Program-made: the position numbers and the translations under genes | In this document: piece after piece, positions 4,366 through 64,000 of the stretch | Layout: each line of letters opens with the position of its first letter | How positions within the stretch are numbered: the first letter of the stretch is position 1 | Notes under the pieces: generated by a model | Seen by the model: the letters and a program-made list of their open reading frames with translations, nothing else | What the model was told of the DNA's origin: nothing | Databases searched by the model: none | Assembly: GCA_903813345.2 (NCBI GenBank) | Contig: CAIIXF020000010.1 | Span: forward strand, 32,328,425 to 32,392,424 | Direction of reading: 5' to 3' | DNA length: 64,000 bases | DNA from: Owenia fusiformis | Taxonomy: Eukaryota; Annelida; Polychaeta; Sabellida; Oweniidae

Positions 4366-7300
4366 ATGGAATGTTTGACGACCATTACTGATAAGTTACA
4401 ACCAAATTTCTTCTCGGTCTGTGGATTTCTTCTAAACATTTTGATCATTCCACGAATCGGGATCACGGTTGTTGCTCACACTCTACTTTTCAACGAGGGG
4501 AACTTTCTTTGCTTCTTGAACATCACATCTGGTCAGTACTCAGACGACGCCCAAACAAACTTCAACCAACGCTGTCATAATGCATTTGCTTCAAAATGGC
4601 CGCCATATGTTCATTGGTACACACAATTAGTGTTGACAATTTTCATTTTGAGTTGCTTCTATTTTCCATGTTGGTGGACTGTAGAGCATAAAAAGCCATT
4701 AGACAAACTGCAAGCAAATCGTGACAAGTATAATAGATCAATAGGAAAAGTTCCTTGGATATATCTTGCCCAGACCGCTGCACGAACAGCTGTTGAATTT
4801 ATCTTTACCGTTTCCCAGGTTGCCTTATATGGCTTCCAGATCCCAAGTAGATATGTTTGTTCAGTTGACAATGACACAATACCATGTGATAATCTCAAGG
4901 TAACTGGAAAAGTTGGCCTTTTTGTTGCTATGTTTCTCCTGTCTCTACTCGTGATAGGCTTGCTGATTGCTGATTTATACAGAACAATTCAAAAGTTTTT
5001 GAAAGGCAGTGAACTATCGCTCTTACCAGTGCTTTGTAACGAAGGTAAGAAATTATGTATTATGCAGAAGCATTCAAATTCTCGTAGTTTCATTTCCCTT
5101 TCTAGTATTTATAATATTGTAAGGTTGTATCATGATTTCTGTATTTTCTAAATGTTATTATATATATTGATCGTTCCTCTATTGCAAATCAGCCTCATTA
5201 TTTATTCTACCAAAAGTAAGCTTAATTATTCATTTTGTTTCACTAAAAAAAATAATATAAAAACATATACAAATATTTCTCAAATTAAGTTGTTACCTGA
5301 TTCAAACGATGTGTAATTTTTTCAGATTTTTTCGTAAACAGGTTTAAAAGAAAACAATGTTGAATATAGTTTACCAAATCATAATAGTACCAATCCAAAT
5401 GTTATAGTAATTAATAAATAATCTGACTTATTGGTTCTTTAAGTGGATCATTATAAAACGATTTGTAATATTACTTCAGGCCAAAAATACAGCCCTATAT
5501 CCACAAGCGCACCTGAACCTGTAGCAGATTTCTTCAAATGTGAAAACTACACAAAGTTGGAAAAGAAACTAGGTGATCAAGACTTGGTTGTCTTAACAGG
5601 TGAGTGAACAAGAAAATGACAATTCTAAAGAGTATAAAACCAGATTAAACAAAATAAGTTTTTTCATGTTTATATACATGTACATGTAATTGAAATTATA
5701 ATTACCACAATCTGACATATGGAGAGCATTATAATTACCATATATCCCAGATGAACATTTTGCTTAATACAAAGGAAATTTTGCAAGATAGACAACTCTT
5801 AACAATCGTCTGGGATGAAACAATAACTTTTTAATTTTGACAAAGATACCATATTTTAACATATCTTGTTTATATTAAAGGGACAATGACGGATATAGCT
5901 ATGAGGAAAGCTTTCTGAATTACATTACAGTCGTACTACAATATTTTTGCTCAAAACAATCTATTCGATACCTGTTATCTGAAATGCCTAAAAGTTCAGG
6001 TTTTATTTCATGATCAATTCTTTGTTTTGTAATGTTACCTGGCAAGGATGTTGAAATGTACATCCTTTCTCCTATTTCATTGAATTGGACATTTATACAA
6101 TCTGAAATATTCAGTAACGTCCATATTTGATAAGTTGTTTCTTTTTAGATTGCTTACCTCAAGGTTATGTCCCGTGCTTTGCAATAGTGCAATTCCCCGT
6201 CATCTGTGTACCGTTTTAAATGTTGTAATTAAAACGCTGAATAATATTTTATTTTAAATACTCTTTGTTAACGCAAATAACTTCTCTGGAAAGAAGCTTT
6301 AGACCACAGACAAGAGAAACTAGTTAGTATATGTATTTAAAACCATTTTCCTGGGTAAGTAAATACGAAAAAGAATGCCAAGAATTCTCGACTGAAAACA
6401 AAGATGGTTTGATAAGTATATATTTGTATTTTTGAACAGTCCCTTGGTTCAGGAAAATACAATTATGCCTTATCCTATGGCAGGAATTCTTAACTGAAAC
6501 AAATGGGATTTTAATATACTGTATAAGTGGTATTTAATCCGAGTGGTTAATTTTCCGAATGGTCAAATTTCATCATTTTCCTAATTTTAATTTTCCTAAT
6601 GAGATGAAACCTCCCATTGGATAACATTATAAAGACAATATTTCCGACATTAAATTTCCGAACCAGGCAAAAAGTAGGAAATAGGCAAATTAAATGATTA
6701 GGCAAAATTACCACTTATACAGTATTTGTGTATGTATATATATTTTAACACCCATTCCCCTTGTTTAGTCAACTTTATGACGTGAGTTCTTGACCGAAAA
6801 GAAAGGGGGTTTGTTTAGAATCCATGTGTATTTTTGAACAGCCTCTATTAGTCTAGGAAAATCTCAATGAGCCTTACTCTATACAAATAATTCTTGACTG
6901 AAAACAAATGGGGTTCGTTAAGTATTTATTCGTATTTTTGAATAGGCCCATTTGGCTCAGAAAAAACGCAGATAGCCTTTCTCTGTACTAAGGGGTTCAA
7001 GGCTGAAACTAAAACTAATTTTCAAACAGGTCCCTTACAGAATACCCTACTTATTTTTAGCAGAGAATTTCCTAACCAAAAACTAATGGAGTACTTTCAT
7101 TTAATATGGTATTGTATATATTTTGAAACAGGTCCACCTGGTTCAGGAAAAACGCAGATTACCTATTACTATGCCAAGAAGTTCCAGACTGAAAACGTAG
7201 GGACGATGTATTTCAAACTCAAATCAGCATCCCCGGAAGATATCATAGTTGATTGTAAGAAGGTAATTAAATTCCTTGCTTTGGACATTGATATTCCGGA

Positions 7301-9668
7301 CAGTGACATTGATGGTGAAGACATTGCACATAACAAGATCACAGCCAAAAGATTCCTTCGGCATATTTGTGAAAAGCTCGGCCAAAAAACACTGTTGATT
7401 TTTGACGGAGGAATATTCAATACAGCTTGTCTTATCAAAGAGGTATTCGAAGGTTCTGAATTTATCAATATCAAAGTTATTATAATCTTAACTGACCAAA
7501 AGAATATGAGAGGTTTTGAAAGTTCAAAAATTGAAGTCAATGGGTATACTGAACAAGATATTCTGGTCCTCGCCAAAGATTCTCCATACAATGAAGAATT
7601 CGAACTTGAAGATTTGGAGAAATTAGCTCGGAAGCTAGATTATTCTCCACTTGGTATACATGCCGCATGTCAATACATAATTGATTCTCCTGGTTATGAG
7701 ATAAAGGATTTTCTAAACCGAATGGATGAAGGTAAGAAGCCTATGACGGATAAAGTAAAGGATATAGTGATAGAGAAAAACTATCCAATACCCTTAATTG
7801 ATTTGTTTGAATTAAGGTACAAAACGGTTTGTGAGAAATACAAAAATGATGACGTACTTAAAATATTGAATATTGTGGCTATGCTAAGCTCCGGCCCAAT
7901 AGACTTTGATATCCTTGATTGGATTGTAAGGGCTAGCTGCCCAGAGAAAAACAAACCTATTTCTGATCATGATGAAAAGTTTATAAAGAATCAGTTGATT
8001 GAGGTAATAAAAGAGCACTACTTGGGCAATGTGGAAGAGATCTCAACCACTGGAAAAGATGACAAAATGCATAAAATACTAAATATGCATAATGTACCAA
8101 AATTCGCAATAACGTCAAGCTGGACAGAAGATGAAAGAATCAAATACTTCTTACAGGTGCTTCTCATCCTTGATGACCAGGTTGATAAAGACACGCGTCG
8201 TAACAAAGATGTCACATTGATCCTCAACCAGATCCCACATGTGAAACATGCACTGGAAACGGACTTGTTATCCCTTTCCAGAGATCAACATCAACAAGTC
8301 GGTATCCAAATTTTACAAATCGGACTACAAGATAGACTGCATCACATGTACACACAAACTGGGCTTATACAGTACTTCAAACAGAGCAAGTCAAAAGCAA
8401 AACAACAATTCTATAATCTTCTATCTAACAACAGCTACAACATCTATTCTGATGAGGCTGAACATAATATCAATGAAGAAGTGAGAAAACTGTTGGATCC
8501 ACAGCTGCAGAACGACATTGTCAGTGATGCATTTATCAAGAAGAAAGCCTATGTAATCAATAGTATGGTGCAAAAGCTAGAGGTACCTAAAGAGCCAGTT
8601 GACTTTGTGAATGAACTTATTTGTACAAGACGTCTGAATAGAGACGATGTAAAACTGTTCCAGAGAAAAGTGTCTTTATCCAATAATTATCTTACAGAAG
8701 CCGCATACAATACCCTAGTGGGAAAAGGTGCAGCAATTGAATTAGAGACGATGAGGAAAGTGTTTTCATTGGAGTTGTTGGTCTCTATCCTCTATACGCA
8801 TGGTCGTATGTACTTCTATCAGAACAACAGAGATAAGGATGAGGCAGATGAGGTTTATGAACATGACCTACGCCTTGCATATGAGATTTCTGACATAATA
8901 CATAAAGAGCATGGCATCAAAATAACTACCCTACTTCTTGCTGAGCGCAATGGTTTTCTATATATAGATGTAGATAGCGGCAATGAGGAAAGGATGAACA
9001 ACGCCAGGGGAAGATACACTGCCATGTTGGCTGATGAGAGCGAATATTATGAGAAGGGACTGCGAAAGATAGTGCCAAAGAACGATCGGTACCATCAGAT
9101 GATATGCCAAAAACAGTTGGTGAATTATTACACTTTAGCAGTGGAACAAGAACAAGAGAGAGGCAATGATCATGAGGCGAAAAAATTATATGAGAAGGGA
9201 TGTGAAGAAGCTACATTGCTACTTGAGTACATCGGGAAGGAGGATTATCATAACAAAGCAGAGGTCTTCATCAAAATTGGCAAGCTTAAAATGACACAGC
9301 TGAATGGAAAAATCCTTTGTGATGGAGATGAAGTTGACTCAAAATCGTTCAATGGCACTAAAACTAACTATTTGGAGGAAGCCATTGACACTTTCAAAAA
9401 TGCTCTTGAATTAGAGAAAGACAAAAGCCAGGATCACCAACGATTTGACCTTGTTGTCGATGCACATGCTGGACTTGCGTGGGCCTTGTATAAACGTGAC
9501 AACAAAAAGAACAATTGGAAAAATGCAAGAAGACATGCACGTGAAGCAATTAAAATTTGTAAAGGCAAAAATATAAGGAGGAATATTGAAGAGAAACTTC
9601 AAAGAGAATTATTGTCAAAGGGAAGTAATCGACTGGATTCCGTAACATCAGTAGACTCAAATGTGTGA
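4366..9668 (+). CDS. Four-TM large-pore-channel-like / NB-ARC (STAND) ATPase / TPR-like fusion protein
   Basis: Three exons (4366-5044, 5480-5599, 7132-9668) join at GT-AG sites, both junctions in phase 1, to give 1111 residues and a TGA stop. The first ATG is at 4366; an in-frame TGA at 4324 excludes a longer unspliced start, though an upstream exon is possible. Residues about 19-42, 82-104, 133-158 and 182-205 are hydrophobic helices. The two outer loops each hold two cysteines (49/70 and 165/174). The spacing of RCHNAF..W....HWYTQ before helix 2 and of YGF.....YVC after helix 3 resembles connexins, while two cysteines per loop is the innexin/pannexin pattern. Exon 2 is a linker. The ATPase follows: Walker A GPPGSGKT (267-274), Walker B LLIFDG (about 354-359), a sensor strand VIIILTD (about 382-388) and a GxP-like SPLG (438-441), then a winged-helix-like stretch. 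The last 250 residues are charged amphipathic helices resembling TPRs. No LRR, TIR, death or CARD domain is seen. Channel assignment is by motif and topology only; the exon join and the P-loop are firm. LRRC8 is a known analogue of a 4-TM pore fused to a repeat domain. Confidence 0.82.
6345..7131 (+). repeat. Decayed tandem copies of the P-loop exon start inside intron 2
   Basis: At least five blocks resemble the acceptor and first ~70 bases of exon 3. At about 6434, 6835, 6933 and 7023 a T-rich tract with a CAG or TAG is followed by a variant of GGTTCAGGAAAA and then, about 50 bases on, a variant of TTCTTGACTGAAAACAAA. Partial copies begin near 6345 and 6755. With the MITE at 6519-6722 removed, spacing is about 95 bases. 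All copies have mutated Walker A sequences and frame breaks, so they are relics, although some keep an acceptor-like AG. Confidence 0.65.
6519..6722. mobile_element. 204-bp TA-flanked MITE in intron 2
   Basis: The end CTGTATAAGTGG is repeated inverted as CCACTTATACAG, with TA on both sides. It sits inside the array of degenerate exon copies and splits one of them, so it inserted after that array formed. It has no coding capacity. Confidence 0.75.
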
Positions 9669-9970: not shown

Positions 9971-10206
9971 AAAATACCACGATAATTCTCAGTTATAAGT
10001 ATTTTAAAATTGTCATTCAAGCTCATGATGCTTTATATGCCTCTTTGGTAGCTCATAGTATTAAGTGGGTGGGTTGGAATATGGGCTTAATTGGTATCAA
10101 GACATTTCACCCCCTGGACGTTTCACCCCTAGACAGTTCACCCCTCAGACGTTTCACCCCCTGGACGTTTCACCCCCTAGACACTTCACCCCCTAGACGT
10201 TTCATC

Positions 10207-11048: not shown

Positions 11049-11861
11049 GTTTCATCCCCTGGATGCTTCACCCCCTGGACGTTTCACCCCCTAGACATTT
11101 CACCCCTAGACTTTTCATCCCTTAGACGTTTCACCCCTAGACGTTTCACCCCTTAGACGTTTCACCCCTTAGACATTTCATCCCCTAGACACTTCACCCA
11201 CTATACATTTCACCCCTTAGACGTTTCACCCCCATATATAGTTTGTGTACATGTACAACGTCATGGGTTGGGTATTTAGTGAATTTTGACTGAATTTACA
11301 TGAGTATACTTATTTCTTTCAAGTAACATTGACTGGAAAATGTCATAGTGTATAAAACCATAACAATATTGGTACAAATAAGTTTTAAAAAAAGGTTTAC
11401 ACTTTGTACTGATTAAATATGCGTTCCTCTAATTACCTAGACAATCCCTTCCCTTGTTATCAAATGCATTATTAAAAAGCAACAGACTGATGCATTATCA
11501 TTTTTTAGATTTAGAAAATTAATCCAATTGTTTTTTTTCTTGTACATTTTTAAGTGCAACATGTTCAATAGAAACAATATATATATATATATGTATATGA
11601 AATCTTAATATTTAAAATTCTTTGTACCTATGCTTTTGAATCCAAATTTTCTGAAAATTGATGCATATGTTTTTTGCTTGTAATGTTAATAAGGCCAGTA
11701 ATAAATAACAGTGCTAGAATGGCCAAAAATGTTGTTTTTTGTATTAATAGCAGAGTTGTTCTTCATTAACCAATTTCTTGAAGAGCTGCAATAGAAAGTT
11801 ATTAATTAACTGGATCTCACTTCAAAACCCAGAAAACTGAATATGGAAAAACAAGTGAATA

Positions 11862-12268: not shown

Positions 12269-12774
12269 ACTACCTGCTTGCCTCTGCCTTATAACTGGTG
12301 ACTTACAATACTTGTTATTTGATTATGCTATTTGAAACACTTGGTAATTAAATTCTGATTTTAATTAATTAAGACCACGCTAAACCAGATTACATAAAAT
12401 CATCTAACTTAAATTCACTGAGCAAAATGTGTCAATGGAATATGTACAATAATATATGCCATTTATACCTAAGGTATTCAGTTCTAAAATACTTGAATGA
12501 AATATTGAGGAGTAAAATATTGAGGCTAAAATGTCTAGTGGGTGAAACGTCTAAGGGATGAAATGTCTAGGGGATGAAATATCTAAGGGGTGAAACGTCT
12601 AAGGGGTGAAGTGTCCAGGGGGTGAAATATCTAAGGGATGAAATGTCTAAGGGTGAAACGTCCAGGGGGTGAAATGTCTAGGGAGTGAAATGTCTAAGGG
12701 ATGAAACGTCCAGGGGGTGAAACGTCTAAGGGGTGAACAGTCTAGGGGTGAAACGTCCAGGGGGTGAAATGTCT

Positions 12775-13483
12775 AGAAAGCGCTTAATTTCGAGTTAAAA
12801 TATGATATTGTCATGACAAAAATATCATATTGACCGAAGTTGTTAACCCTCGAGTGTCAGTATGATATTTTGCGAGGCCAATATCATATTTTCCCAAGTT
12901 TGAAATCGAATTCTAAGGGAAAAAATGCATATTCCATAACGACCATTGAACCTATTTATTCAGAGGTTGCGTATCTAGACATATCTGTCACGGTACTGGA
13001 CCCTACAGGATGTTCCATATGTTTCAGGAATGATGCTGTATTTTAGTTGTTTTCTTTTCAATCTAGCTGAATTTTTGACAAAATGTGTCCATGTTAGTTG
13101 TAAATGAATTGGGAAAGTTTTATATCACGAAAGTCAGTAGACCTAATAATATGGTTGCTATGGTAACCCAGGGGTGTGGTAGGTGGAGCAGGTGTAACAA
13201 CCGGCAAAATATATGTTATATTTGTAAAAATAGTAGTTTTTGTATGAAGTGTGGGTTAGTATTAGGTTGTCATAGTTGCATCAAAGCAAAAATGAAAGTG
13301 AATTCCTGGAAATTAAAAAGAATAGTCATCATTGATGATATATTACAAAATATAGGACTTCAATGACTCGTGTTTTTCACAAAGTTTAGCCTTTTTTATC
13401 ATGATGGATCGCCAAAAACGGCATGTACCTTTCAATGAGATGATATGTTTTTAAAAGAGTGGTATCGGTATGGTGAACTTTTT
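12775..13483. other. No clear gene; cysteine-rich ORF of unknown status
   Basis: A 93-codon frame at 13085-13366 on + encodes a cysteine-rich tail (CYICKNSSFCMKCG then GCHSC) that could form a zinc finger, loosely like the ends of some transposases. It has no recognised family, lacks a convincing ATG context and lies amid repeats. I do not call it a gene. Confidence 0.35.
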
Positions 13484-18629: not shown

Positions 18630-19921
18630 ATGGCTGACGACGGTGAACATAGTGATGTGGCGGCAGAGGAAGTGCAACACCATTAACCACTTGCCACTTC
18701 CACAACCTACCATCTAAATCCGCCGGCACCTCTTAACTTCAAAGATGGAGCTAAGGAGTGGCCGAAATGGATCAGGAGATTCGAGAGATTTAGAATGGCG
18801 TCGGGACTAGACCGTGACCCTCAGGAGAGGCAGGTAAACATGCTCATATTTTCCATGGGTGAGACAGCCGAAGATATATTCCTGTCTTTCACATTTGAAA
18901 ATGAGGCCTCAAAGAATGAATATAAAACTGTCAAAACTGCGTTTGAGAAACATTTTGAGGTCAGAAAAAACGTCATTTATGAAAGAGCACAATTTAACAG
19001 ACGCTCACAACTTGAATCTGAATCTGTGAACACATTCATCACCGATTTATATAAACTATCGGAGCACTGCTCCTACGGTACTTTAAAGGAGGAACTCATC
19101 AGAGACAGAATCGTTGTTGGCATTCGTGATACTCGACTTAGTGAGAAACTACAATTAGATGCAGCTCTGACTCTGCAAACATGCATCACGAAAGTTCGTC
19201 AAAATGAGGCGGTAAAACAGGAACAGACTTTACTACGTGATATGCCAGCCGCTACTCCACAAAACTTGGATGAGGTACGCAAAAAGTTTAATAAATCTCA
19301 TCGCAAATCATCTGGATTTAAATCAGAATCACATGGATTAAAATCTTGCTATCGCTGCGGGAAGGCACCACACCCAAAGGATAGGTGCCCAGCCATTAAA
19401 GTGACCTGTAAACGATGTAAGATCAAAGGACATTTCACAGAGTACTGTAAGACTAAAAATGTACATGAAGTTGCGTGTGACTCTGATGATTCTGATACAA
19501 ACTCGTATTATCTTGGCGAAGTCATTCTTGACATACCAAATAAGTCTAACATGTGGACAACCTATGGAACATTAAATGAAGGCCGTGTTTGCTTCAAAAT
19601 AGACACGGGTGCGGACGTGACATGCATATCCCGCCAAGTTGCGGAGGAGTGTAATATTCTCAACGACCTGCACGATACCGATGTGACATTATCGGGTCCC
19701 TGTCATCAACCTCTACAAAACGTCTTAGGTGTCTACGATGGTTCGCTGAAAATTAACAATACTACAATCCAAGATGAAATCTACGTTCTACAGGACCTCC
19801 AAGTTCCACTGCTGTCCAGACCTGCAATTGAAAAAGCCAATATTTTGCAGCGTTCTGCCTCTGTGGACTCTGTAAATTGTAACATGAGTGATAAATCATA
19901 TGAGAATAAATATAACCATAT
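18630..19921 (+). pseudogene. gag-protease region of the Ty3/gypsy element
   Basis: The frame opens at ATG 18630 and has an in-frame TAA at 18684. A second ATG at 18795 could start a shorter product but would drop the conserved WPKWIRRFERF segment just upstream. The capsid-like region is followed by two CCHC zinc knuckles (CYRCGKAPHPKDRC and CKRCKIKGHFTEYC, both C-X2-C-X4-H-X4-C). A retropepsin domain follows with the active-site motif DTGAD at about 19602-19616. The frame runs into the insertion at 19922. Confidence 0.9.
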
Positions 19922-20219
19922 TGTAACGAATTTTTCATTTTTCAAAATTTTATTTTTGGAGTCCAGTGCCGTTTTTTAGCACTTTAGACAGTTTTGACAG
20001 TAGGAAAGTGTTTCCCAGTCACAGTTGACAGCTTATATAGTTATATTTATGAATAGAACACTTTAGGTGTACTGGGAATAGTGTAAACTACTCTTTTCTG
20101 GGAGATTTATTTTGCTTTCGTTCGTGTGCAAAACACATGTTACATACATGTTGGGGTATAAATACAGTGGCGGACGTGACTCGGGGGCTTTCTGCGCATT
20201 GACTTTTGACGAACGGGAC

Positions 20220-22480
20220 TATGTGGCTCGGGTTTATGGAATCTTTGGAACTATGAAACTTTGTCGTTTTTGCTAACTGCAAAACTTAGACGATTCTTGG
20301 AACTACAAAACTTAGGAAATTTTCTGCTAACTGAAGGATGGCATGGGATGATTGACTTGCCTAATTGAACTTCATTAGCCTGAGGTAGTAACCATAGATG
20401 ATTATAAGCCACTGGTGTTGGATTCTAGGTGAATTAACTGGCTTATTGAGGAAAGTTATTGAACTACAAAACTTTGGAAGTTTTTCTGGAACTACAAAAC
20501 TTAGGAAGTTTTTCGCTGACTATTAGCCCGATAGTCCTAGATGATTATAAGCCACTGATGTTGGAGCAGATAGCACATTGACTTTTGACGAACGGGACTA
20601 TGTGGCTCTGATTTACGGAATTTTTGGAACTACAAAACTTAGGCAGTTTTCTGGAACTATAAAACTTTGTCATTTTTGCTATCTGCAAAACTTAGTCGTT
20701 TTCTGCTATCTGAAGAACATAGTCGATCTGCTACATGGGATGACTGACCATTGACTGTTGACTATTGACTTCACTTAGCCTGATGAAGTAGCCATTGATG
20801 ATTATAAGCCATTGCTGAGACAATCTGGATGAATTTATTGGCTTATTAGAGGAATTTTTGGAACTACAAAACTTAGGCAGTTTTCTGGAACTATAAAACT
20901 TTGTCATTTTTGCTATCTGCAAAACTTAGTCGTTTTCTGCTATCTGAAGAACATAGTCGATCTGCTACATGGGATGACTGACCATTGACTGTTGACTATT
21001 GACTTCACTTAGCCTGATGAAGTAGCCATTGATGATTATAAGCCATTGCTGAGACAACCTGGATGAATTTATTGGCTTATTAGAGGAATTTTTGGAACTA
21101 CAAAACTTAGGCAGTTTTCTGGAACTATAAAACTTAGTCATTTTCTGCTACCTGGGGAACATAGTCGATTGACCATTGACTATTGACTTCACTTAGCCTG
21201 ATGAAGTAGCCACTGATGATTATAAGCCATTGATGTGAAAACCTGGATGAATTTATTGGCTTATTAGAGGAATTTTTGGAACTACAAAACTTAGTCGTTT
21301 TTGCTAACTGCAAAACTTAGCTGATATTTTGGATCTACAAAACTTTAGTCGATCTGCTACATGGGATGACTGACCATTGACTATTGACTATTGACTTCTC
21401 TTAGCCTGATGAAGTAGCCATTGATGATTATAAGCCATTGATGTGACAACCTGGATGAATTTATTGGCTTATTAGAGGAATTTTTGGAACTACAAAACTT
21501 AGTTGTTTTTGCTAACTGCAAAACTTAGCTGATATTTTGGATCTACAAAACTTAGAAGTTTTCTGCTATCTGAAGAACTTAGTCGATCTGCTACATGGAA
21601 TGACTGACCATTGACTATTGACTTCTCTTAGCCTGATGAAGTAGCCATTGATGATTATAAGCCATTGCTGAGACAACCTGGATGAATTTATTGGCTTATT
21701 AGAGGAATTTTTGGAACTACAAAACTTAGTCATTTTTGTTATCTACAAAACTTAGAAGTTTTCTTCTATCTGAAGAACTTAGTCGATCTGCTACATGGGA
21801 TGACTGACTATTGACTTTTGACTTCTCTTAGCCTGATGAAGTAACCATAGATGATTATAAGCCATTTATGTGAGAACCTGGATGAATTTATTGGCTTATT
21901 AGAGGAATTTTTGGAACTAAAGAACTTAGTCGTTTTGCTAACTGCAAAACTTAGCTGATATTTTGGATCTACAAAACTTAGAAGTTTTCTGCTATCTGAA
22001 GAACATAGTCGATCTGCTACATGGGATGACTGACCATTGACTATTGACTTCTTTAGCCTGATGAAGTAGCCATTGATGTGAGAACCTGGATGAATTTATT
22101 GGCTTATTAGAGGAATTTTTGGAACTACAAAACTTAGTCGTTTTTGCTAACTGCAAAACTTAGCTGATATTTTGGATCTACAAAACTTAGAAGTTTTCTG
22201 CTATCTGAAGAACATAGTCGATCTGCTACATGGGATGACTAACCATTGACTATTGACTATTGACTTCTCTTAGCCTGCTGAAGTAGCCATTGATGATTAT
22301 AAGCCATTGATGTGAGAACCTGGATGAATTTATTGGCTTATTAGAGGAATTTTTGGAACTACAAAACTTAGTCATTTTTGCTATCTGCAAAACTTAGTCG
22401 TTTTTGCTAACTGCAAAACTTAGCTGATATTTTGGATCTACAAAACTTAGAAGTTTTCTGCTATCTGAAGAACTTAGTCG
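20220..22480 (+). repeat. Satellite array, about 215-240 bp units, within the nested insertion
   Basis: Around nine units contain GGAACTACAAAACTTAG, GATCTGCTACATGGGATGAC, TTGACTATTGACTT and GATGATTATAAGCCATTG. The first part (20220-20600) is more diverged. Smaller internal repetition of CTGCAAAACTTAG and CTACAAAACTTAG shows a hierarchical origin. The small ORFs inside it are not genes. Confidence 0.88.
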
Positions 22481-22586
22481 ATTTGTTGCGTGGGAATCTA
22501 CAGGACTGGACAGCACTTCAAGAGGGTGAAGCTATCCCCAGCATAGAGCTTACAGAAGTGGTGTCCAGCCTTCATAGACCTAATTC

Positions 22587-22790
22587 ATGGAATTGGATGT
22601 TCCTTTCTTCGCCTTGGTCCTAGTCAGTGTTTTATTCATAGTGACCTGTTTGATCGCGATTATATGCATTCGTGTGTGTATGAGGACTGAAAGGGATTCT
22701 ACTAACCAGGAACCTCAAGTAACCCTTGCACCTAGGCCAGCATTACAGTCATCATTGGGATTCAGTTTGGCCACTGTGAACTTTGAATAG
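22587..22790 (+). CDS. Small single-pass membrane protein ORF (unknown)
   Basis: A 67-codon frame with an ATG start encodes about ten residues, then a long hydrophobic helix (VLVSVLFIVTCLIAIICI) and a polar tail of about 35 residues. It lies between the satellite and the right end of the nested insertion. It might be a remnant of an envelope-like or host-derived membrane protein carried by the insert, or a chance ORF. No family is recognised. Confidence 0.3.
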   Translation: MELDVPFFALVLVSVLFIVTCLIAIICIRVCMRTERDSTNQEPQVTLAPRPALQSSLGFSLATVNFE

Positions 22791-23028
22791 AATCCTACTG
22801 TGCACTATTATTGTACCAGAGAGTGGGTGCATATAATTAACAACAACAAGTTTATTTGGACATTTTGAATTTATTTGTGTATAATTAATGTTATAATATA
22901 TGTGAAATAAACCTATATTGTTTGTCGTGTTGTAATTGCTGTAAACACAAGTACATTTAACGTGTACCCAGAAATCCCAAAAGTAACCTAGCCCTCACAC
23001 TACCACAAATCGGCTAGTTTGTTACAAT

Positions 23029-25609
23029 ATGTTCAGAGGTCTTGGTAAACTCAAGGGTGAATATTCAATTAAATTAGCCCAAAATGCTGAGCCTTTTGCT
23101 TTAGCAACTCCCCGTCATGTTTCACTCCCTCTGTACGATAAGGTCAAAATTGAGTTGGAACGAATGTTAAAAATTGGGGTAATTTGGTCAAATTTCAGGT
23201 GCGCATGTTTATACAAAATTAGATGCAAATTCGGTGTTTTGGCAAGTGGAGTTAGCGGAAGATTCGAAATTGCTCACGACATTTATTACGCCATTCGGAC
23301 GGTATGCATTTAACCGCCTTCCTTTTGGCATCAACTCTGCTCCAGAACATTTCCAGCGTCGCATGCATCAAATATTAGATGGTCTTGATGGTGTCGCAAA
23401 TATCGCAGATGATATTCTTGTGCATGGCAAGAATAAAAATGAACATGACATCCGTCTTGATAAAGTCATGGCGCGACTCAAGGAACATGGTGTTACACTG
23501 AACAAGAAAAAATGTAAATTTGCTGTGACACAAGTTTCGTATGTAGGATTTCAAATTGGTCCAAACTCAATTCGTGTCGATCCGGAAAAAGTAGATGCGA
23601 TAATGAAATATCCGGAACCAACAAATATTACCGAGTTACGCTCATTTCTCGGGATGGTAAACCAAGCGGGACGGTTCATTGACCACCTTGCGGAAATTAC
23701 TAAACCGCTGCGCGATCTTCTTAGCAAGAAAAATGCATGGTTATGATCACAAAGCCAAAGTGACGCGTTTCGGAAGATAAAAAATGAGCTCACCAAATCA
23801 CCAACATTAGCACTTTATGACGCGAATGCGGAAACGCTTATTTCAGCTGACGCTTCATCTTACGAAATCGGAGCTTGCATGAAACAGAAACAGTCAGATG
23901 AATCCATATGCGTTGTAATGTATGCTTTTAGATCCCTCAGTGAAACTGAATCAAGATACGCCCAAGTTGAAAAAGAAGCCTTAGCCTCTTGTTGGGCTTG
24001 TGAAAAATTTTCAGATTTCCTATATGGTATGCCTGAATTTCAAATTGAAACAGATCACAAACCCTTGATTCAGCTTTTGGGGTCAAAAGCACTCATTGAT
24101 GTGCCTCCGCGTATTCAAAGATTTCGCATGCGTATGGCGCGTTTCAAATACACTATAAAACATGTTCCCGGCAAAGATTTATCAATTGCAGACGCATTAT
24201 CGCGTGCGCCGGTGCGTAACACTCAATCTGAAGACGAAATTGATCTTGAAAATGAAACAGAAATGTTTGTTCATTCAGTCAAAATATCTCTACCAGCTTC
24301 TGAGAAAAGACTTGCCCAAATTATTGAAGAGCAAAATTCTGATCACACTTGTTCATTAGCAAAGAAATACTGTCTCATAGGCTGGCCAGAGAAATCTAAG
24401 CTCAATGGTGAATTGAAAGTACTATGGAGTATCAGAGGTCATTTATCTATCATGAATGATATTCTTGTCAAAGATTCAAGAATTTTTATTCCCCAGTCTC
24501 TACGTTCTGACATTCTTGAAAAACTCCACAATGGTCATCAAGGTATCACTAAAACTCGTGAGAGAGCCAAAGCCTCTGTATATTGGCCAGGTTTGAGTAA
24601 GGAATTAGAGAGTTATATCACAAAATGTGAAAAATGCACAAAATTCAGGAAAAATCCAACTGAGCCTATGATTGCAACAAAACTTCCTGAGCACCCATGG
24701 CAAAAATTGGCATTAGATCTCTTTTATCTTGAAAGCAAATGGTATCTCTTGATCATTGATTATTTCTCAAGATATGTGGAAGTTGTCAAATTGTCAACAA
24801 TGACTGCAAAAGAGACCATTACACATCTTAAATCTATATTTGCTCGCCATGGTTGCCCAGCAGTAGTTAGGCCTGATAATGGCACTCAGTTTACCAGTGG
24901 TGAATTCATAGATTTTGCAAATGATTATGGATTTACAATAGATACATCTAGTCCTCTATATAGTCAATCTAACGGAGAGGCAGAACGAGCCGTGCAAACT
25001 ATTAAAAACATTCTCCGTAAAAGTGAGGACATATACAAGGCAATATTATCCTATAGGGCAACACCATTAGAGAACGGCTTTAGCCCAGCTGAACTATTAT
25101 TTGGACGAAAATTTCGTACTCCATTACCAATGTTGACATCAGAACTTGTACCCAGTTGGCCTTATATGAAGCAATTTAAATCTAATGACTTTAAGTTAAA
25201 GGCCAGACAAAGGCAGAACTATAATAAAAGACACAAAGTTCGTGATTTACCCGAATTATCTCCAGGAGATCAAGTGTTCATTTCTGAGCCAGGAAAAACT
25301 AGTGTTACTTCAGGAGTAATTGATAAGCCACATTATGCTCCTAGATCATACATTGTAAAAACTGAGAAAGCAGGACTATTGCGCAGAAATCGCAAACATC
25401 TCATATCTTCACATGATAAAAACAGTGTTAAACAGTGTGAGGAGCCAATATTAAGTGACAATAGTGACAGTGAAAATTCTCATCAGTTGAATTTATCTAC
25501 TTCTCAACAGGCAGAGAATGATAGTGAATTTCAAGTTTCTACATCTCCCATGTTAAGGAGATCTACAAGGTCTAGTAAAGCACCTCAGAGACTCATAGAA
25601 GAAATGTGA
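23029..25609 (+). pseudogene. pol region (RT, RNase H, integrase) of the Ty3/gypsy element
   Basis: Reverse transcriptase begins right after the nested insertion. A deletion near 23198 removes part of the palm and shifts the frame; the remainder continues from about 23200 with PFG.....LPFG and the catalytic ADDILVHG near 23405. An in-frame TGA sits at 23744-23746. RNase H follows (SADASSYEIG near 23845 and TDHKPL near 24052). Integrase is intact in the last frame: an HHCC zinc module (about 24520-24640, with CEKCTKF), then the DDE core (LALDLFY, RPDNGTQF, SNGEAERAV) between about 24700 and 25010. It ends at TGA 25607-25609 without an obvious chromodomain. Confidence 0.92.
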
Positions 25610-57300: not shown

Positions 57301-60300
57301 TGTTTCTATGGTGTTTTCCTCTGTAACGTTAATTTGCTTAACCACAATGGGTCATTTGACTAATCCCCTTTCCCCCCCTCCATCCCCAGTTTAAGTTAAC
57401 ATACACGTTTATAAGAGTATGAAACATACTTACATAACAGGAGCATTAAGCCTTGAGTTATTATGAAGCAGATCAAATTTCGTAGATGTCGTAATTTTTA
57501 TATCTTCCACAAAGAAAATATCTCCGGATATTAGTTGTTCTGTACATTGACCTACAAGTCATAAAATATATTGTATAAATTCTGTCACTATTTAAGAAGA
57601 GTTAATTTCAACTACTACCTTTAAGAGGAGTAATATACTAAGTTATTGGATCTTTGTTAATTGATCTTTCTTGGGGAACTTCGGGTTTTTGATCATTTCA
57701 ACTCTGTAAATATATTTTAAATAGCTCCGATACTTGCATTTTCACGCGGTACTAACTTCGACCGTTAATTTGAATTTTTGACCGACCGGATGTTTGAAAA
57801 TCAAAGATTGATACTGCACCGTTTTTCTTCAAACTTGTTCCATTCAAAGCATAACAAAAATCCCTTTCTGTTGGTACATTATTCTCTTAAACAGAGTCCC
57901 TACTTCCAGGGGCATTTTGGTCCCCAGCTGTAAGAAGGCCTTCTAACAGCTGGGGACCAAAACGCTGCTAGAACGAGGGACTCTTTACAATAAAATAATG
58001 CACCGCCAGAAAGGCAATTTTGTTTTGCTTTTAATGGTATAAGTTTGAAGAAAAACGATGCAGTGTGAGACTTACAATCCTTGATTTTCGAGCATCTGGT
58101 AGGTCAAAAATTCAAATTAACGGTCGAAGTTAGAACCGCGTGATTTCAGTTTCCATTACAACATATCAATTTCCATTACAGCATTACAACATAAAATGTC
58201 TTCTCCAGAAGTAATACCTCTTAATCGTCACTGTGCTTAACATACGTATCGCATTTAAATATGTAGACACAAGTTACATAAGAGGAACTACGGAACATCG
58301 TATGAAGAGAGAGAGCAACGGGACATAAGGACGAATCAGTTGGGACATTTTACATAACAAAAATTGTTAGAGTCGAATAATGCTTTTCGTATACCATTGG
58401 CATCAAATAGGAACAATTTTATGTACCCATAATTCAATCTCGAATGATATTTTGGTACAGAAAAATAATGTTCATATAAGGGAAGTTTTAATGGTTCAGT
58501 TTTAAAAGCTAGAAATCGCATTGGACAAAATCGGAACTACGGTACATGACCATAATGAACTATCCACCTTTCTTTATTTTTGTTTGTTTGTTTGTTTTTA
58601 TTGATCATTGAAAGTTATACATACATCTTTTATACTTATGCAAAGTTGGTATGTACACGTATGTGAAAACAATAAAATAGAAAATAAGATTCTGATTCAA
58701 CCTGATTCTGTAATAAAGTATAGAGCAAATCATATCCTAAACATGTTTACCTCATTACGAAGGGGTAAGATTCTTAATTTGAATTGTGTGCAGTTGTTTT
58801 ATTACTTGTTAATTAATAATTTATTAGGAATGAGCTTAAATGTATTTTGATAGGCTTCTGATTGATGCATGTGGCTGCAATGCCCTCCTTTGGTTAAACG
58901 AGCACACAATGTTCGAGCAATTACTCGATAGATTAAATTGTGTTATTATAAATTATTTATATTAACACCGGCTTTTAATCGTTTGTCTCTATGTTATATC
59001 AATTAACTTTTACAATTAATCCATAAATGTTTTGTTCAATACAATAATAATCCCCTTAAATACTGGGTGTCCATAAAGTATCTTAACATTTTGGACATAA
59101 TAAATTGTATTGTAATTGTAGAGACTTTATGGGTACCCTGTAAATCCTGAATATAGGCCCACAAATTAATAAGTGTGTATGATTAAAATGACAAATAAAC
59201 ATTCAGGAAAACCTAAACAGTTTGAAAACATTTAAAACGACAACGGGTGTTAAAAACAAACCCCGGTATTTTAGCCAATAATTTCATTTCCAAAAAGGGC
59301 CCAAAGTATATTCTTATCATGTTTGCATACCGCATGGTTTTGGAATATCTCATATCAGGCCACAACAATAAGCCATTTCTCAAAATAAAAGGAGATGGTA
59401 TGTCCCAGGTATGTCAAATATTTACCTGGAGTAGATTTAGAAAATGAGTTTGAAAAATGGGTGTAATCACGATTGCATGCGGTTTTACAAAAGCGCTTTT
59501 CCAAAACTCTTAGAACCCTAGTCACTAGAAAACGCCTTAAATCATTAGGCGCTTTTGGAGTGTAATACCGACTAGTTTTTGTAAAGTTCAATTTGGCGCG
59601 TTATTTATGATGTTCAAAGTACATCCTTACATTGAAAGGTTAAACTTAGCTCATGAGTATGTTTCAATGGGACATAGTATGTGATGTGCTCCAAGTTCAT
59701 CAGTATATTAAAAAGTTCAATTTGGCGCATTATTATAGTTCAATTTGGCGCGTTATTTATGATGTTCAAAGTACATCCTTACATTGAAAGGTTAAACTTG
59801 GCTCATGAGTATGTTTCAATGGGACATAGTATGTGATGTGCTCCAAGTTCATCAGTATATTAAAAAGTTCAATTTGGCGCATTATTATAGTTCAATTTGG
59901 CGCATTTTTTATGATGTTCAAAGTACATCCTTACATTGAAAGGTTAAACTTAGCTCATGAGTATGTTTCAATGGGACATAGTATGTGATGTGCTGTAAGT
60001 TCATCAGTATATTAAAAAGTTCAATTTGGCGCATTATTATAGTTCAATTTGGCGCATTTTTTATGATGTTCAAAGTACATCCTTACATTGAAAGGTTAAA
60101 CTTGGCTCATGAGTATGTTTCAATTTGGGACATAGTAGTGATGTGCTGTAAGTTCATCAGTATATTAAAAAGTTCAATTTGGCGCATTAGTATAGTTCAA
60201 TTTGGCGCATTATTTATGATGTTCAAAGTACATCATTATATTGAAAGGTTAAACTTGGCTCATGAGTATGTTTCAATCTGGGACATAGTATGTGATGTGC

Positions 60301-62640
60301 TCCAAGTACATCAGTATATTAAAAAGTTCAATTTGGCGCATTAGTATAGTTCAATTTGGCGCATTATTTATGATTTCAAAGTACATCCTTACAATGAAAG
60401 GTTAAACTTGGCTCATGAGTATGTTTCAATTTGGTATGTAGTATGTGATGTGCTTCAAGTACATCAGTATATTAAAAAGTTCAATTTGGCGCATTAGTAT
60501 CGTTCACATAGTATGTAATGTGCTCTAACTTCATCAATATATTAAAAAGTTCAATTTGGCGCATTAGTGTAGTTCAATCTGGCGCATTATTTATGATGTT
60601 CAAAGTACTTCCTTACATTGAAAGGTTAAACTTGGCTCATGAGTATGTTTCAAATTGGATTTTGGGACATAGTATGTGATGTGCTCAAACTTCATCAATA
60701 TATTAAAAAGCTCAATTTGGCGCATTAGTGTAGTTCAATTTGGCGCATTATTTATGATGTTCAAAGTAAATCCTTACATTGAAAGGTTGAACTTGACTCA
60801 TGAGAGTATGTTTAAATTTTGGACATAGTATGTGTTGTGCTCAAACTTCATCAATATATTAAAAAGCTCAATTTGGCGCATTAGTGTAGTTCAATTTGGC
60901 GCATTATTTATGATGTTCAAATTAAATCCTTACATTGAAAGGTTATTTTACTCAAAACGGAGAATAAATAATTTACTGATTTATATTTGAAATGTACCCA
61001 TATTTTTCATTCCACTTTTTGTATTGACTTACATTTTTAAAATTCATTTAAAGTTCATTTAAAATCATATACTTCAACATCATAAAATTTTAAATGAGAT
61101 CTCAGACATTAAGTTTGATCAAGCTTTCTTAAGTGAAATGCATGATTTTATTTGTTTACATTAGCGCTTAATTGAAAAATAAAATAGGATTAACTCCAAG
61201 CAAATTAAGGCACATCAAAGAATATATAGCCTCGTGTATAAGAGGCGTATAGTTTGTTTTTGGATTACGTAATACATACTATACTCATCTTTTCTATGTA
61301 CTTATATCCTACTTTTCCTGGCTCTTAAGAATAATCGGAGAATAGTTCAAACGATATTTAGTATCGTAGAGTATATACCACCAATACTAAATGTTCCGCT
61401 TCTGAGGCAAGAATAGTTTGTTTTCCATACCAAATACAGTATAGTGAGGACATACTGAACTATATTCACAAATAGTTTGCCACTTATATGCTACTATATT
61501 TAGCTTTTTGCACAGTGAAAACGCCTTATTCAGGTCTTAACAATTTGCCACAAACGAAATAAGACGTATTTCGAATGCTACACATTTGGGCCATCGCAAA
61601 AATAAGGAAATGATGGATGGGAGCCAAAAGATGCATTAGGTCATCAAATCATATTGCAAAAATTGAAAGTAGGTTCACATGACTGGCAAAAGTATCGGTT
61701 ATGGTTTCTCTTCGATGCTAAAGGAATACATTTATTGTATATGTACGCATCTGCTGTTTATTCTCTCTATCTACATAGTTAAAAGTGTACGAAAGGCGTT
61801 TTAAAAATGGCAGGTGTAATTCCAAAGTAAAATTCCTAAGGCGCTTTAGAATTGTTGGTGTAATCAGGTTGGTGATTTTGTAAAGCGCTTAGGGTTTTTT
61901 CTGGTGTAATTCCAGCAACTGATAACTTTCACATATCACCGTTCTAAATAGCGAGAACGATCGATCGAACAAAATATTAATGATTTCATTGCGTAAGATA
62001 AAAGGGAGGTTGAATTCTTGATTAATATAAGATACTTCCTCAGATTGAGTATTCTGATTTTGCAACCAGGGGAATAACAACATTCCAACAATTGATGTTA
62101 ATTCTTAAATTTACGAATAATCTCTAAAATGAACTAAAGCCCATATGAATGGTCAAGTATTTGATTTGTTCATTAATAGTAAAACCAATAATGAAAACCT
62201 ATTATTGAAAATGTATATTTTAAAACGTATTAACAAATTGCGTCTCTCATCATTTCTATTATTTGACCGAATTAAGATTTATACCTGTCCGTATGTAGTA
62301 ATCAACATCGTCGTTTGTAGCTCTGGGTAGATGTTCTGCCAGATATGGACCGTTCAACTCACATACATTCGTGAATGGTTTTTCTCCTTCAAGTTTACGG
62401 AGGTTGTACGACGTACATCTGTCAGTCACAGAACATGTAGCCTCACATCTTGAATTCGCACCAACCTTAAACGACTTCAAGGGATTGCCTAGTGTCAGCT
62501 GAGCGTGCGGCAATTTAATATATTTCTCATTAGTAATTTGATATTTGGAAAGTGATATTCCAATCTTAGTCGCATGAGATTGTACCAAAGTAACGCAAAT
62601 AATGACTTGGATGAATATTGTTGCGTACGCCGAAGATATA
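48317..62640 (-). CDS. PAN/Apple plus two F5/8 type C (discoidin) domain protein
   Basis: Minus-strand exons, in transcript order: 62285-about 62640 (PAN), 57434-57551, 56468-56657, 54982-55129 (first F5/8C), then 50684-50801, 50366-50555, 48317-48458 (second F5/8C). All visible boundaries are GT-AG. Phases run 1, 2, 0, 1, 2, 0, 1, so the seven exons join in one frame. The PAN exon opens with a signal-like hydrophobic run (IFIQVIICVTLVQS) and has the cysteine pattern SRCEATC...DRCTSY...NVCELN. Each F5/8C shows C.EQLISGD, DGGWAPFIP or its variant, QWIQADLGAV, GNTDHTSSVTN.IEPPVQA and RLNPRTWN.WIGLRFDVIGC. Such proteins are secreted or surface lectin-like binders of glycans or lipids. No in-frame ATG is visible in the first exon, so a short upstream exon or a sequence error is needed. 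The last exon ends in phase 1 with no stop, so the 3' end is not found. Two separate tandem genes is the alternative. Confidence 0.82.
49502..49840 (-). pseudogene. Mariner-like transposase C-terminal fragment
   Basis: The end TACAGGGTGGTCCAAAAATGG at 49503 looks like a Tc1/mariner terminal repeat. On the minus strand at about 49735-49840 the frame NALRFRLRTLCRW..ASTQNGGYIEHLF matches the usual C-terminal tail of such transposases. The rest of the gene and the other end are missing, so it is a truncated copy inside an intron of the discoidin gene. Confidence 0.65.
51036..51112 (+). repeat. tRNA-derived SINE head with Pol III boxes
   Basis: TAGCTCAGTTGGTAGAGC is a canonical A box and D arm, and GATTCGATTCC is a B box. 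The anticodon arm (CCAGTCTTTGGATCC) does not pair properly, so this is not a working tRNA gene. The downstream unrelated sequence is expected for a SINE body, whose end I cannot place. Confidence 0.65.
51346..53610 (+). repeat. Tandem duplication of a ~910-bp block
   Basis: 51346-52255 (starting AGAGAGTGTGGTGTAG) recurs at 52378-53610, separated by 122 bases. The second copy is longer only because of the MITE at 53242-53561. Remaining differences are scattered substitutions. No gene is contained; the 66-codon ORF at 52112 is in the duplicated block and is broken by the MITE in the second copy. Confidence 0.88.
53242..53561. mobile_element. 320-bp MITE in the second duplication copy
   Basis: The ends CACTCTTAAAAAT and (inverted) CACTCTTAAAAATGAAT bound the segment absent from the first copy at about 52208. 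The interior is made of AAGTAATTTTTAAG-like words. It inserted after the tandem duplication. Confidence 0.85.
53616..54479. mobile_element. 864-bp short-TIR element, copy B
   Basis: Same length and ends as 16016-16879. TACA is duplicated at its edges (53612-53615 and 54480-54483). Scattered substitutions separate the two copies. It lies right at the end of the second duplication copy. Confidence 0.82.
55930..56085. repeat. Palindromic MITE (family also at 46745)
   Basis: TATGATTTATGGCGTAATATATGACC is mirrored near 56040-56065 as GGTCATATATTTGACATAAATCATA. The core with CCATTGTTAAAAGACCGAAATCG matches the 46745 copy inverted. Confidence 0.7.
56786..56910. repeat. Fragment of the GGCGGATCC-ended MITE
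   Basis: CACTGGCGGATCCAG followed by GGGCCC-type runs matches the left part of the element at 32108-32437. It is internally deleted. Confidence 0.6.
57742..58143. mobile_element. 402-bp foldback element, complete copy
   Basis: The ends TCACGCGGT and ACCGCGTGA are exact inverses. The two halves are inverse over nearly the whole length, with a hairpin tip near CAGCTGTAAGAAGGCCTTCTAACAGCTG at 57927-57955. The copy at 1-327 is the same element cut by the window edge. Confidence 0.85.
59063..59140. mobile_element. 78-bp mini-MITE
   Basis: CTGGGTGTCCATAAAGT at the left is mirrored by ACTTTATGGGTACCCTG at the right, with TA on both sides. It is unusually short for a transposon-like unit. Confidence 0.6.
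59584..60950 (+). repeat. Satellite with ~153-bp units carrying TTTGGCGC pairs
   Basis: About nine units contain AAGTTCAATTTGGCGCATTA twice, TTATGATGTTCAAAGTACAT, GAAAGGTTAAACTTGGCTCATG and GACATAGTATGTGATGTGC. The first units are nearly identical and the last ones more diverged. One unit near 60490 has lost its middle. The 119-codon ORF at 59985 is satellite read-through. It lies in an intron of the discoidin gene. Confidence 0.9.
60951..62284. other. Intron sequence, no other feature
   Basis: Only short AGGCGCTTT..GTGTAAT words (about 61790-61905), similar to those at 59460-59565 before the satellite, stand out. They could be edges of a larger element holding the satellite, but both lie in direct orientation. 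Confidence 0.4.
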
Positions 62641-64000
62641 CATTTTTATGATTCTCTTAAATCTCACTGCAGATGAGATTCGTGTATCATTCTAGATTTC
62701 CATAATGTTGTGGATTATTCACAACACATAAGTTTATCAAACTATTTGCTACCGCAAACAATAACATGCTAACCGTTTTACATAAATTATTTACTATAAT
62801 TCAGTGCTGTGTGTTTGTTGCACTCTTTTGTTCATTTATTGTCACGTGAACCACTTAAAAGCATTGTAAAATACCCTGGACAATATTCTGTTTCTAGAGT
62901 TGATGTGTTTTTTCAAAAATTAATTGCATGCGGTTGTTAAGATACAATACGTTAATTCAGACCAATCCCTATCAATAATGTGTTCATTTACTGCATTAAA
63001 AAAGCTCCAAAAATCGAATTTTATCATTTATCAAAAGTCGGTTATCGTCGTCCATTGGGGCTAGATTTATGCATCAATTTTACTGCATCCTGGATAGTAC
63101 ATGTTCTAGTATATATGAAGCTTGGTATCCTATTATATATCATGATGTAACATGTATATATGTAGTTTCCATGGAATTATTACAACGACACATATTATGA
63201 TGACAGGGATGAGCAAAATGCGTAATAGTTCATATGTGTTACTTTTAAACATCAGTCAACTCTTCAAATACAATGAACATTTAGTACTTTTACTACTGGA
63301 GTTATCATGCAATCTGATGTGACAAACATTCTTCACTTCAGTAATATAATGCTCTATTATAATACATTATTTATAGGACACAGGGTAAGACCTATCGTGA
63401 CGAGGAATTGAATCACGGGATTGTTTTAGGAACACAGATTATGTTTTGTTATGTGTGGGGTGGGTCGATACCTACTCGGACCACTATTTTGCTATTGATT
63501 CCAATTAACTAAATGTCGAAACTGGCAAAGAATGAAAATGCTATGGTTTCAAGTCCAATTTTTAAGGTTTCTGTTCATCACTCCCCGGAATAGATGTACT
63601 TTTCTCTTAACCTATTATTGGGAAGATGATGATCGATTTAAAAACACGATTGAAAACTTAGGATTCGTTTCTGAGAAAAAGTCCCAAGATCCATAAGGTA
63701 GACTTTGATCCAAATATTGACAGGCTTTGAAAGTTTATCCAATGATAACTTACTGTTTACAAATTTATGAAGAGAATTGTTAGTTGTTAAAATGATATCA
63801 CGCATGGACCAAATGACACCGGGCGTGCCTAGAAAATATGGTTAGCATGCGAATGGGATTAATGGGTGCATGTAGACTTCTTGAACCATCAAAGTATTAC
63901 ATATGACTGAAGGAACATACTGGTTTAACTGTATTTCTCGTAGTTTGGATATAGATAACTTAAAAAATATTAGATGAGTAAAAAATACCAAGATTCCAGA
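62641..64000. other. Upstream flank of the PAN/discoidin gene
   Basis: AT-rich with no recognisable exon. A short first exon with the start codon for the minus-strand gene should lie here if the gene model is right, but I could not identify it. Confidence 0.4.

Follow-up and report, generated by a model that had tools for sequence, protein, structure and literature searches.

The genome of the annelid Owenia fusiformis (source assembly of 498 Mb in 525 contigs) contains, on contig C10, a three-exon gene whose predicted product joins a connexin-homologous membrane module to a STAND ATPase resembling those of NLR proteins. The stretch analysed here, referred to as the window, is 64,000 nucleotides long and corresponds to C10:32328425–32392424; positions given without a contig are window positions. 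The gene and all its features described below lie on the plus strand. It consists of exon 1 (4366–5044, 679 nt), exon 2 (5480–5599, 120 nt) and exon 3 (7132–9668, 2537 nt), as laid out in an earlier annotation made from the sequence alone (the original prediction). The coordinates, GT–AG borders and matching phase of these exons were all borne out; once joined, they read through 1111 codons to a stop. Given the base composition of the region, the chance per frame of an open frame is about 3e-8 for 226 codons and about 8e-29 for 845 codons.

Exon 1 contains the complete connexin-homology domain (residues 1–226), with an N-terminal segment, four predicted transmembrane helices (TM1–TM4), two outer loops (E1 and E2) and a cytosolic loop. 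TM1 (4429–4488, residues 22–41), TM2 (4612–4677, residues 83–104) and TM4 (4900–4977, residues 179–204) are evident from hydropathy, as the original prediction had it; the remaining one of its four hydrophobic helices, TM3 (4756–4836, residues 131–157), falls below the hydropathy threshold and was placed by alignment with connexins. TM3 forms the core of the connexin match and carries the R-x3-E and YGF motifs; in TM1, R30 is aligned to the arginine that Cx36 has in its own TM1. The paired outer-loop cysteines that had been predicted are C49 and C70 in E1 (4489–4611, residues 42–82) and C165 and C174 in E2 (4837–4899, residues 158–178). An N-glycosylation sequon, NIT at residue 52 (4519–4527), closely follows the first E1 cysteine. 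The cytosolic loop (4678–4755, residues 105–130) has seven K/R and three D/E residues; the positive charge of this TM2–TM3 loop and of the region after TM4 fits a location of both protein ends in the cytosol.

Judged by its sequence, the four-helix module of exon 1 is a connexin homologue. Exon 1 scores 43.4 bits against the Pfam connexin family PF00029, with a cut-off of 31.3. A phmmer search of the PDB returned 18 matches at E values up to 10, every one a connexin, the best being Cx36 (1.2e-5). A profile built from four Owenia sequences matched 34 PDB sequences, again all connexins (best 4.1e-14), and a profile of 13 genomic exons, described below, likewise matched only connexins at E values up to 10 (34 of 34 distinct sequences, best 7.4e-21). 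The latter gave unbroken TM1-to-TM4 matches in Cx43, Cx46, Cx50 and Cx26, spanning positions 21–195 of the 213 profile positions in Cx43 and 14–199 in Cx46. Hydrophobic sequence bias was rejected as the source of the signal: with its residues reversed, exon 1 had no match at E values up to 10 among 177,635 distinct PDB sequences. As sequence families, innexin/pannexin, CALHM and LRRC8 were rejected, being absent from the two Pfam families listed for exon 1 and from the 34 PDB matches at E values up to 10. The large-pore-channel-like module of the original prediction can be specified, by Pfam and PDB profiles, as a connexin homologue, and no unrelated fold emerged.

The product predicted for exons 2 and 3 is a STAND ATPase of NB-ARC-like type that ends in a helical, TPR-like region. 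Exon 2 carries a linker and the start of the STAND domain, its final base being the first base of the P-loop; exon 3 encodes the NB-ARC-like ATPase, a winged-helix region, the TPR-like helical C-terminus and the stop. Both Walker motifs named in the original prediction are present: Walker A, GPPGSGKT (residues 267–274), at 7134–7154, with its first glycine codon divided between 5599 and 7132–7133, and Walker B, LLIFDG (residues 354–359), at 7392–7409. A motif search located both Walker motifs as well as a GxP motif, LDYSPLGIHA (7635–7664), and the sequence LNMHN (8079–8093), which we take to be GLPL-like and MHD-like, respectively. The four motifs follow the NB-ARC order. Related Owenia proteins are designated here P0001 to P0006; the MHD position reads MHN in the window gene, MHD in P0005, MHS in P0002 and LHN in P0003. 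Two Pfam families match the window protein just below their cut-offs, nSTAND3 (24.4 bits, cut-off 27.2) and NPHP3_N (24.7 bits, cut-off 24.8). The NCBIfam family FxSxx_TPR matches P0002 from the nucleotide-binding part to the winged helix (1.5e-13, 50.1 bits) and P0003 (8.2e-16), both far under the 300-bit cut-off. The helical C-terminus of the original prediction is TPR-like, the stretch at residues 1011–1086 (9363–9590) giving a weak MalT-TPR match (16.3 bits, cut-off 45).

Structural comparison of this part relied on an AlphaFold2 model of P0002 that is poor overall (mean predicted local distance difference test score, pLDDT, 50.1) and fair in the nucleotide-binding part and the C-terminus only. 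In a Foldseek search with this model, 12 of the 15 matches at E values up to 0.001 were STAND proteins, with low TM-scores to the query (0.14–0.21); the top match was 6mfv, a STAND protein with a TPR sensor (8.8e-7), and the NRC1 NB-ARC domain, Avs3, plant resistosomes and Dark were also among them. The other three matches were Ctr9/Paf1 (rank 2), Cdc6/Orc1 and an archaeal Walker ATPase. PADLOC gave weak, partial matches only, the best being mad8 in P0003 (5.3e-6). With NB-ARC-type motifs and with STAND proteins among the nearest folds, the NB-ARC/STAND assignment of the original prediction is supported.

The two parts occur together in deposited protein models, in agreement with the predicted fusion of membrane module and ATPase. 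P0002, a deposited protein of 1099 aa, retains the whole four-helix exon and combines connexin and STAND in a single product; in the genome, a stretch of about 15 kb holds its three exons in order. In P0003, P0004 and P0006, a partial connexin exon is joined to the STAND part. P0001, a partial deposited protein, matches the window gene with 100% identity in each piece, covering exon 1 as far as about 4531, exon 2, and exon 3 up to 9617, and contains the exon 2/exon 3 junction. Its donor is an internal 5′ splice site at 4531/4532, which has the same phase as the donor of the full exon; its use excises TM2–TM4. Nothing found places the four-helix and P-loop exons on separate mRNAs; the window's own P0001 nonetheless skips TM2–TM4. 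According to PMC9977687, the Owenia genome was annotated by a pipeline that drew on RNA-seq assemblies and splice junctions together with Augustus and PASA; the deposited models would then have a partial basis in reads, provided that they stem from this pipeline. The same architecture recurs in the genome: 8 of 13 connexin exons (that of the window and seven more) lie ahead of a STAND chassis, and an exon-2-like linker exon is present at all seven other STAND-linked loci. Contig C10 has 37,456,424 bases in the assembly used here and 37,473,021 in the one to which P0001, P0002 and P0004–P0006 are assigned; the two sizes perhaps represent two versions of the chromosome.

The 13 exons come from genome-wide searches, the counts of which are lower bounds. 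Exon 1, searched against the entire genome, gave 14 matching places, of which 13 are close to full length and lack internal stops, and the Pfam connexin model found the identical 13 above its cut-off, in one case covering positions 23–222 of 225. Scanned singly at an E value of 0.001, all 13 exons match Connexin and no other family. The identity to the window exon falls as low as 27%. Four loop cysteines, the TM3 glutamate and a YGF ahead of E2 are invariant in the alignment; the TM1 arginine is kept in 12 of the 13, and the TM3 motif is R-x3-E in ten and Q-x3-E in three. Instead of the canonical three cysteines per loop (C-x6-C-x3-C and C-x4/5-C-x5-C), every exon has two aligned cysteines per loop, with x15 to x20 between those of E1, and every exon has an N-x-S/T sequon shortly after the first E1 cysteine.

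The connexin exon is under purifying selection. The ratio of nonsynonymous to synonymous substitution rates (dN/dS) in this exon is 0.31, 0.09 and 0.17 for the close pairs of loci L009/L010, L012/L013 and L015/L016, and about 0.3 for the window against L009/L010, a less exact value since dS is near 1.1. The STAND exons of L012/L013 and L015/L016 have dN/dS values of 0.37 and 0.57; these ratios are derived from few changes (for L015/L016, 8 in the connexin exon and 33 in the STAND exon). The contrast between connexin and STAND exons looks as if the pore were kept while the sensor drifts. In a tree of the exons, those on C8, C3 (19.3 Mb) and C12 form a separate group. A branch that separates the STAND-linked sequences from the others appears in 2% of 200 bootstrap trees, and a pair lying ahead of STING exons, described below, is placed among them; the placement of the window exon is unsure, long branches meet, and no firm history was drawn from the tree. 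A further locus, L021 (C10:32.26 Mb), has a connexin fragment the size of TM1 only and STAND pieces about 4.8 kb apart; it is probably a decayed copy.

Paralogous connexin exons are also found ahead of other modules. At L009 (C10:36.57 Mb, minus strand) and L010 (C10:32.31 Mb, plus strand), the connexin exons, which are the closest to that of the window (53–55% identical), are followed by two exons of a STING ligand-binding domain (LBD). The first LBD exons score 32.0 and 33.7 bits against PF15009 (cut-off 27), and the joined LBD exons of L010 score 60.1 bits; in the PDB, the 60 matches listed out of 69 for the LBD were all STING, some of them named transmembrane protein 173 or fusion constructs, or TIR-STING. 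The splice phases, read by eye, agree: a phase-1 donor closes the connexin exon and a phase-1 acceptor opens the first LBD exon. Searched exon by exon at E values up to 0.01, the LBD model gave 16 matches in the genome, 14 above cut-off, and on C10 only this pair matched, 3.4 and 3.8 kb 3′ of the connexin exons on the same strand; the chance of such proximity is below 1% by a rough hand estimate. The two loci are near-copies (95% identity over 860 bases including the connexin exon) and were therefore counted as one event. Inspection by eye of the 3.3 kb between the connexin and LBD exons of L010 found no frame of at least 40 codons resembling a second four-helix module. With the splice deduced from phase, L009/L010 possibly encode a connexin–STING receptor, a second type of fusion. 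Further STING LBD exons lie on C7 (10.96–12.83 Mb) and C5 (30.33 Mb), indicating a small STING expansion.

No STAND was found near the connexin exons at C3:19.3 Mb (L019, L023), C8:17.4 Mb (L018, L022) and C12:3.5 Mb (L020, L024). Downstream of the exon on C8 there is a Death frame (23.7 bits, cut-off 22.6), and downstream of that on C12 there are Death-like frames of 17.3 and 20.6 bits, under the same cut-off. The C3 exon is followed by a RHIM of 24.8 bits (cut-off 20) and a second of 16.0 bits, below the cut-off, with a Death domain (46.4 bits, cut-off 22.6) about 13.5 kb away. These frames may serve as leads; other genes may intervene.

Intron 2 contains, at 6375–7008 (plus strand), decayed copies of the junction between intron 2 and exon 3 together with the P-loop start; they are arranged in tandem with a unit of about 104 bp and include a second P-loop-like frame, GPFGSEKT. 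Other tandem arrays are located at 10100–10204, 11049–11233, 12529–12775 and 59581–60945; they include arrays of a 16-base unit (AGACGTTTCACCCCCT-like) at three sites close to the gene and one with a 76/152-base unit towards the end of the window. The region 18687–25609 has frames resembling a long terminal repeat retrotransposon, in which reverse transcriptase, RNase H and integrase score above and gag-protease below the cut-off; long tandem arrays lie between these frames at 20.4–22.5 kb. A minus-strand frame at 62262–62645 has a weak PAN/apple match (19.4 bits, cut-off 21.4). Neither a tRNA nor an Rfam family reaching its threshold turned up in the window, and a search against viral contigs gave no match.

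With somewhat more confidence than doubt, we read the gene as encoding a connexin-type channel subunit that carries an NLR-like STAND switch as its cytosolic tail and may act as an immune- or stress-gated hemichannel. We infer the pore, its gating and the immune role, including formation of the pore upon assembly of the ATPase ring. The subunits would lie in the membrane with both termini in the cytosol and assemble into a ring of connexin type. The outer face of this ring, glycosylated and with four cysteines per subunit, would block docking to a neighbouring cell and leave the ring to act as a hemichannel. At rest, nucleotide-bound STAND domains and the C-terminal repeats would keep the ring shut or unassembled. 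Sensing of a microbial or stress ligand by the repeats could lead to nucleotide exchange and to a STAND ring beneath the pore, which would then open; a STAND ring below a connexin ring would be the simplest way for the two parts to cooperate. Ion flux and the release of small molecules such as ATP could follow, resulting in alarm or cell death, and the paralogues appear to combine this pore with different sensor or death modules. Both the E1 sequon, placed at the docking face, and the four loop cysteines favour an undocked hemichannel. Mouse Cx23, which has four such cysteines, is reported to release ATP and form hemichannels without coupling (PMC10598745, PMC3920103), and glycans prevent the docking of pannexins (PMC8769644). 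The immune reading gains indirect support because paralogous connexin exons precede STING LBD exons and RHIM- or Death-like frames.

Several observations weigh against this reading. The connexin signal comes mostly from TM3–E2–TM4, and the first half of P0002 alone matches no connexin; PF00029 is above its cut-off in P0002 and P0003, below it in P0006 (24.6 bits) and unlisted for P0004. Structure prediction of exon 1, proposed with the original prediction, gave a poor model (mean pLDDT 49.4, four sequences), as did that of P0002 (50.1, five sequences), where residues 1–229 are below 50, so the pore fold rests on sequence; structural comparison of the poor exon-1 model yielded low Z values that are at most consistent with the assignment, and kinship of fold with innexin/pannexin, CALHM and LRRC8 may still exist. 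On the STAND side, Pfam NB-ARC (PF00931) stays below its cut-off in P0003 (13.7 bits, cut-off 23.5) and is unlisted for P0002 at an E value of 0.1. The sole deposited product found for the window gene, P0001, with its donor at 4531/4532, lacks TM2–TM4. Zebrafish Cx23 is reported both to release ATP and to form gap junctions (PMC10598745, PMC3920103), and seven innexins with glycosylation sites do form gap junctions (PMC8769644).

Three other explanations were weighed. The connexin domain might be a non-conducting membrane anchor and oligomerisation scaffold, with the STAND part signalling by recruiting other proteins. Canonical connexin motifs have been lost, both PROSITE patterns being absent from all seven family sequences searched (some partial), and the P0001 form would retain TM1 and STAND without TM2–TM4. 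The cysteines and the TM3 glutamate in all 13 exons and the TM1 arginine in 12, kept down to 27% identity, exceed the needs of an anchor, as does the purifying selection in the close pairs, and we consider a scaffold unlikely. True gap junctions between cells, closed or opened by the STAND tail upon infection, would accord with connexin homology and with the reports of junctions formed by the four-cysteine zebrafish Cx23 and by some innexins with glycosylation sites; the sequon that every one of the 13 exons has next to the first cysteine of E1 and the reduced cysteine set oppose docking and make such junctions quite improbable. That connexin and STAND are separate adjacent genes, joined by an annotation artefact, is suggested by the skipping of TM2–TM4 in the deposited model of the window gene. 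It is very hard to credit when exon order and linker exon recur at 8 of the 13 loci, deposited models from an RNA-seq-using pipeline join connexin parts to STAND at five loci, and splice sites and phase are compatible. A gated hemichannel remains the reading we prefer.

One published survey found no connexins outside chordates and holds that connexins arose de novo in chordates (PMC8769644); Slivko-Koltchik and colleagues (PMC6391747) likewise describe no connexins outside chordates and a late acquisition, and list the annelid Capitella as having none. The connexin homologues of the annelid Owenia do not fit this distribution. P0002 is already titled connexin cysteine-rich domain-containing protein in UniRef. 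The search for homologues with the same fusion, also proposed with the original prediction, brought up the Owenia paralogues; beyond them, protein searches yielded Owenia sequences alone (five proteins among 7999 candidates scored and six among 8000, six different in all). A domain-only profile found none among 3216 candidates, a result of little weight because chordate connexins were missed too; among annelid genomes, the search covered Owenia alone. In the open-licence literature, preprints excluded, no title or abstract start among the entries listed reports a connexin–STAND architecture or annelid connexins. No receptor is known to us, or came up in these searches, that has a connexin-type pore with a cytosolic sensor of its own; each half by itself is of a known kind. 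With connexin homologues in a protostome, the origin of connexins is again open to question. Tentatively, and with doubt slightly prevailing, we suggest that connexin-type pores did not originate in chordates and that in Owenia they may form glycosylated hemichannels, a shared effector of immune receptors with interchangeable modules (NB-ARC–TPR, STING LBD, RHIM/Death); chordate connexins would share this ancestry or descend from it. If true, such a covalent link of a connexin-type pore to an NLR- or STING-type sensor would let the sensing of danger open the membrane directly, with no separate executioner in between.

Each part of the predicted protein has counterparts among known systems. Plant coiled-coil (CC) NLR resistosomes (NRC2/3/4 and Sr35) and animal Dark share an NB-ARC-type switch and rank with the closest folds to the STAND part. 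They begin with CC or CARD domains and sense through LRR or WD40 domains; the Owenia protein, unlike them, has an N-terminal four-helix channel-type module and TPR-like repeats. The best fold match and the best NCBIfam match of the chassis, 6mfv and the bacterial FxSxx-system TPR protein, differ in having no connexin domain, and the family match is far under the curated cut-off. STING, including metazoan TIR-STING, is comparable to L009/L010 in that LBD exons likewise stand behind a four-helix membrane exon. STING has four helices of its own ahead of the LBD, whereas the membrane exon of L009/L010 is connexin-like, its splice to the LBD is deduced, and these loci are distinct from the window gene. 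Cx23 (GJE1) has four outer cysteines like the Owenia exons, with hemichannel activity reported for the mouse protein (PMC10598745, PMC3920103); it differs in being a vertebrate protein without a cytosolic sensor domain and in its E1 spacing, C-x10-C (PMC6858305), compared with x15 to x20 in Owenia. With chordate connexins in general, the nearest being Cx36 (GJD2), the homology is significant and collinear from TM1 to TM4, and the first and last of the three loop cysteines align with the Owenia pair in each loop. Most connexins are said to have the whole domain in one exon (PMC10598745), as is the case in Owenia exon 1. The Owenia exons are set apart from chordate connexins by their annelid host, two cysteines per loop, the E1 sequon, and the STAND fusion or STING LBD exons behind them.

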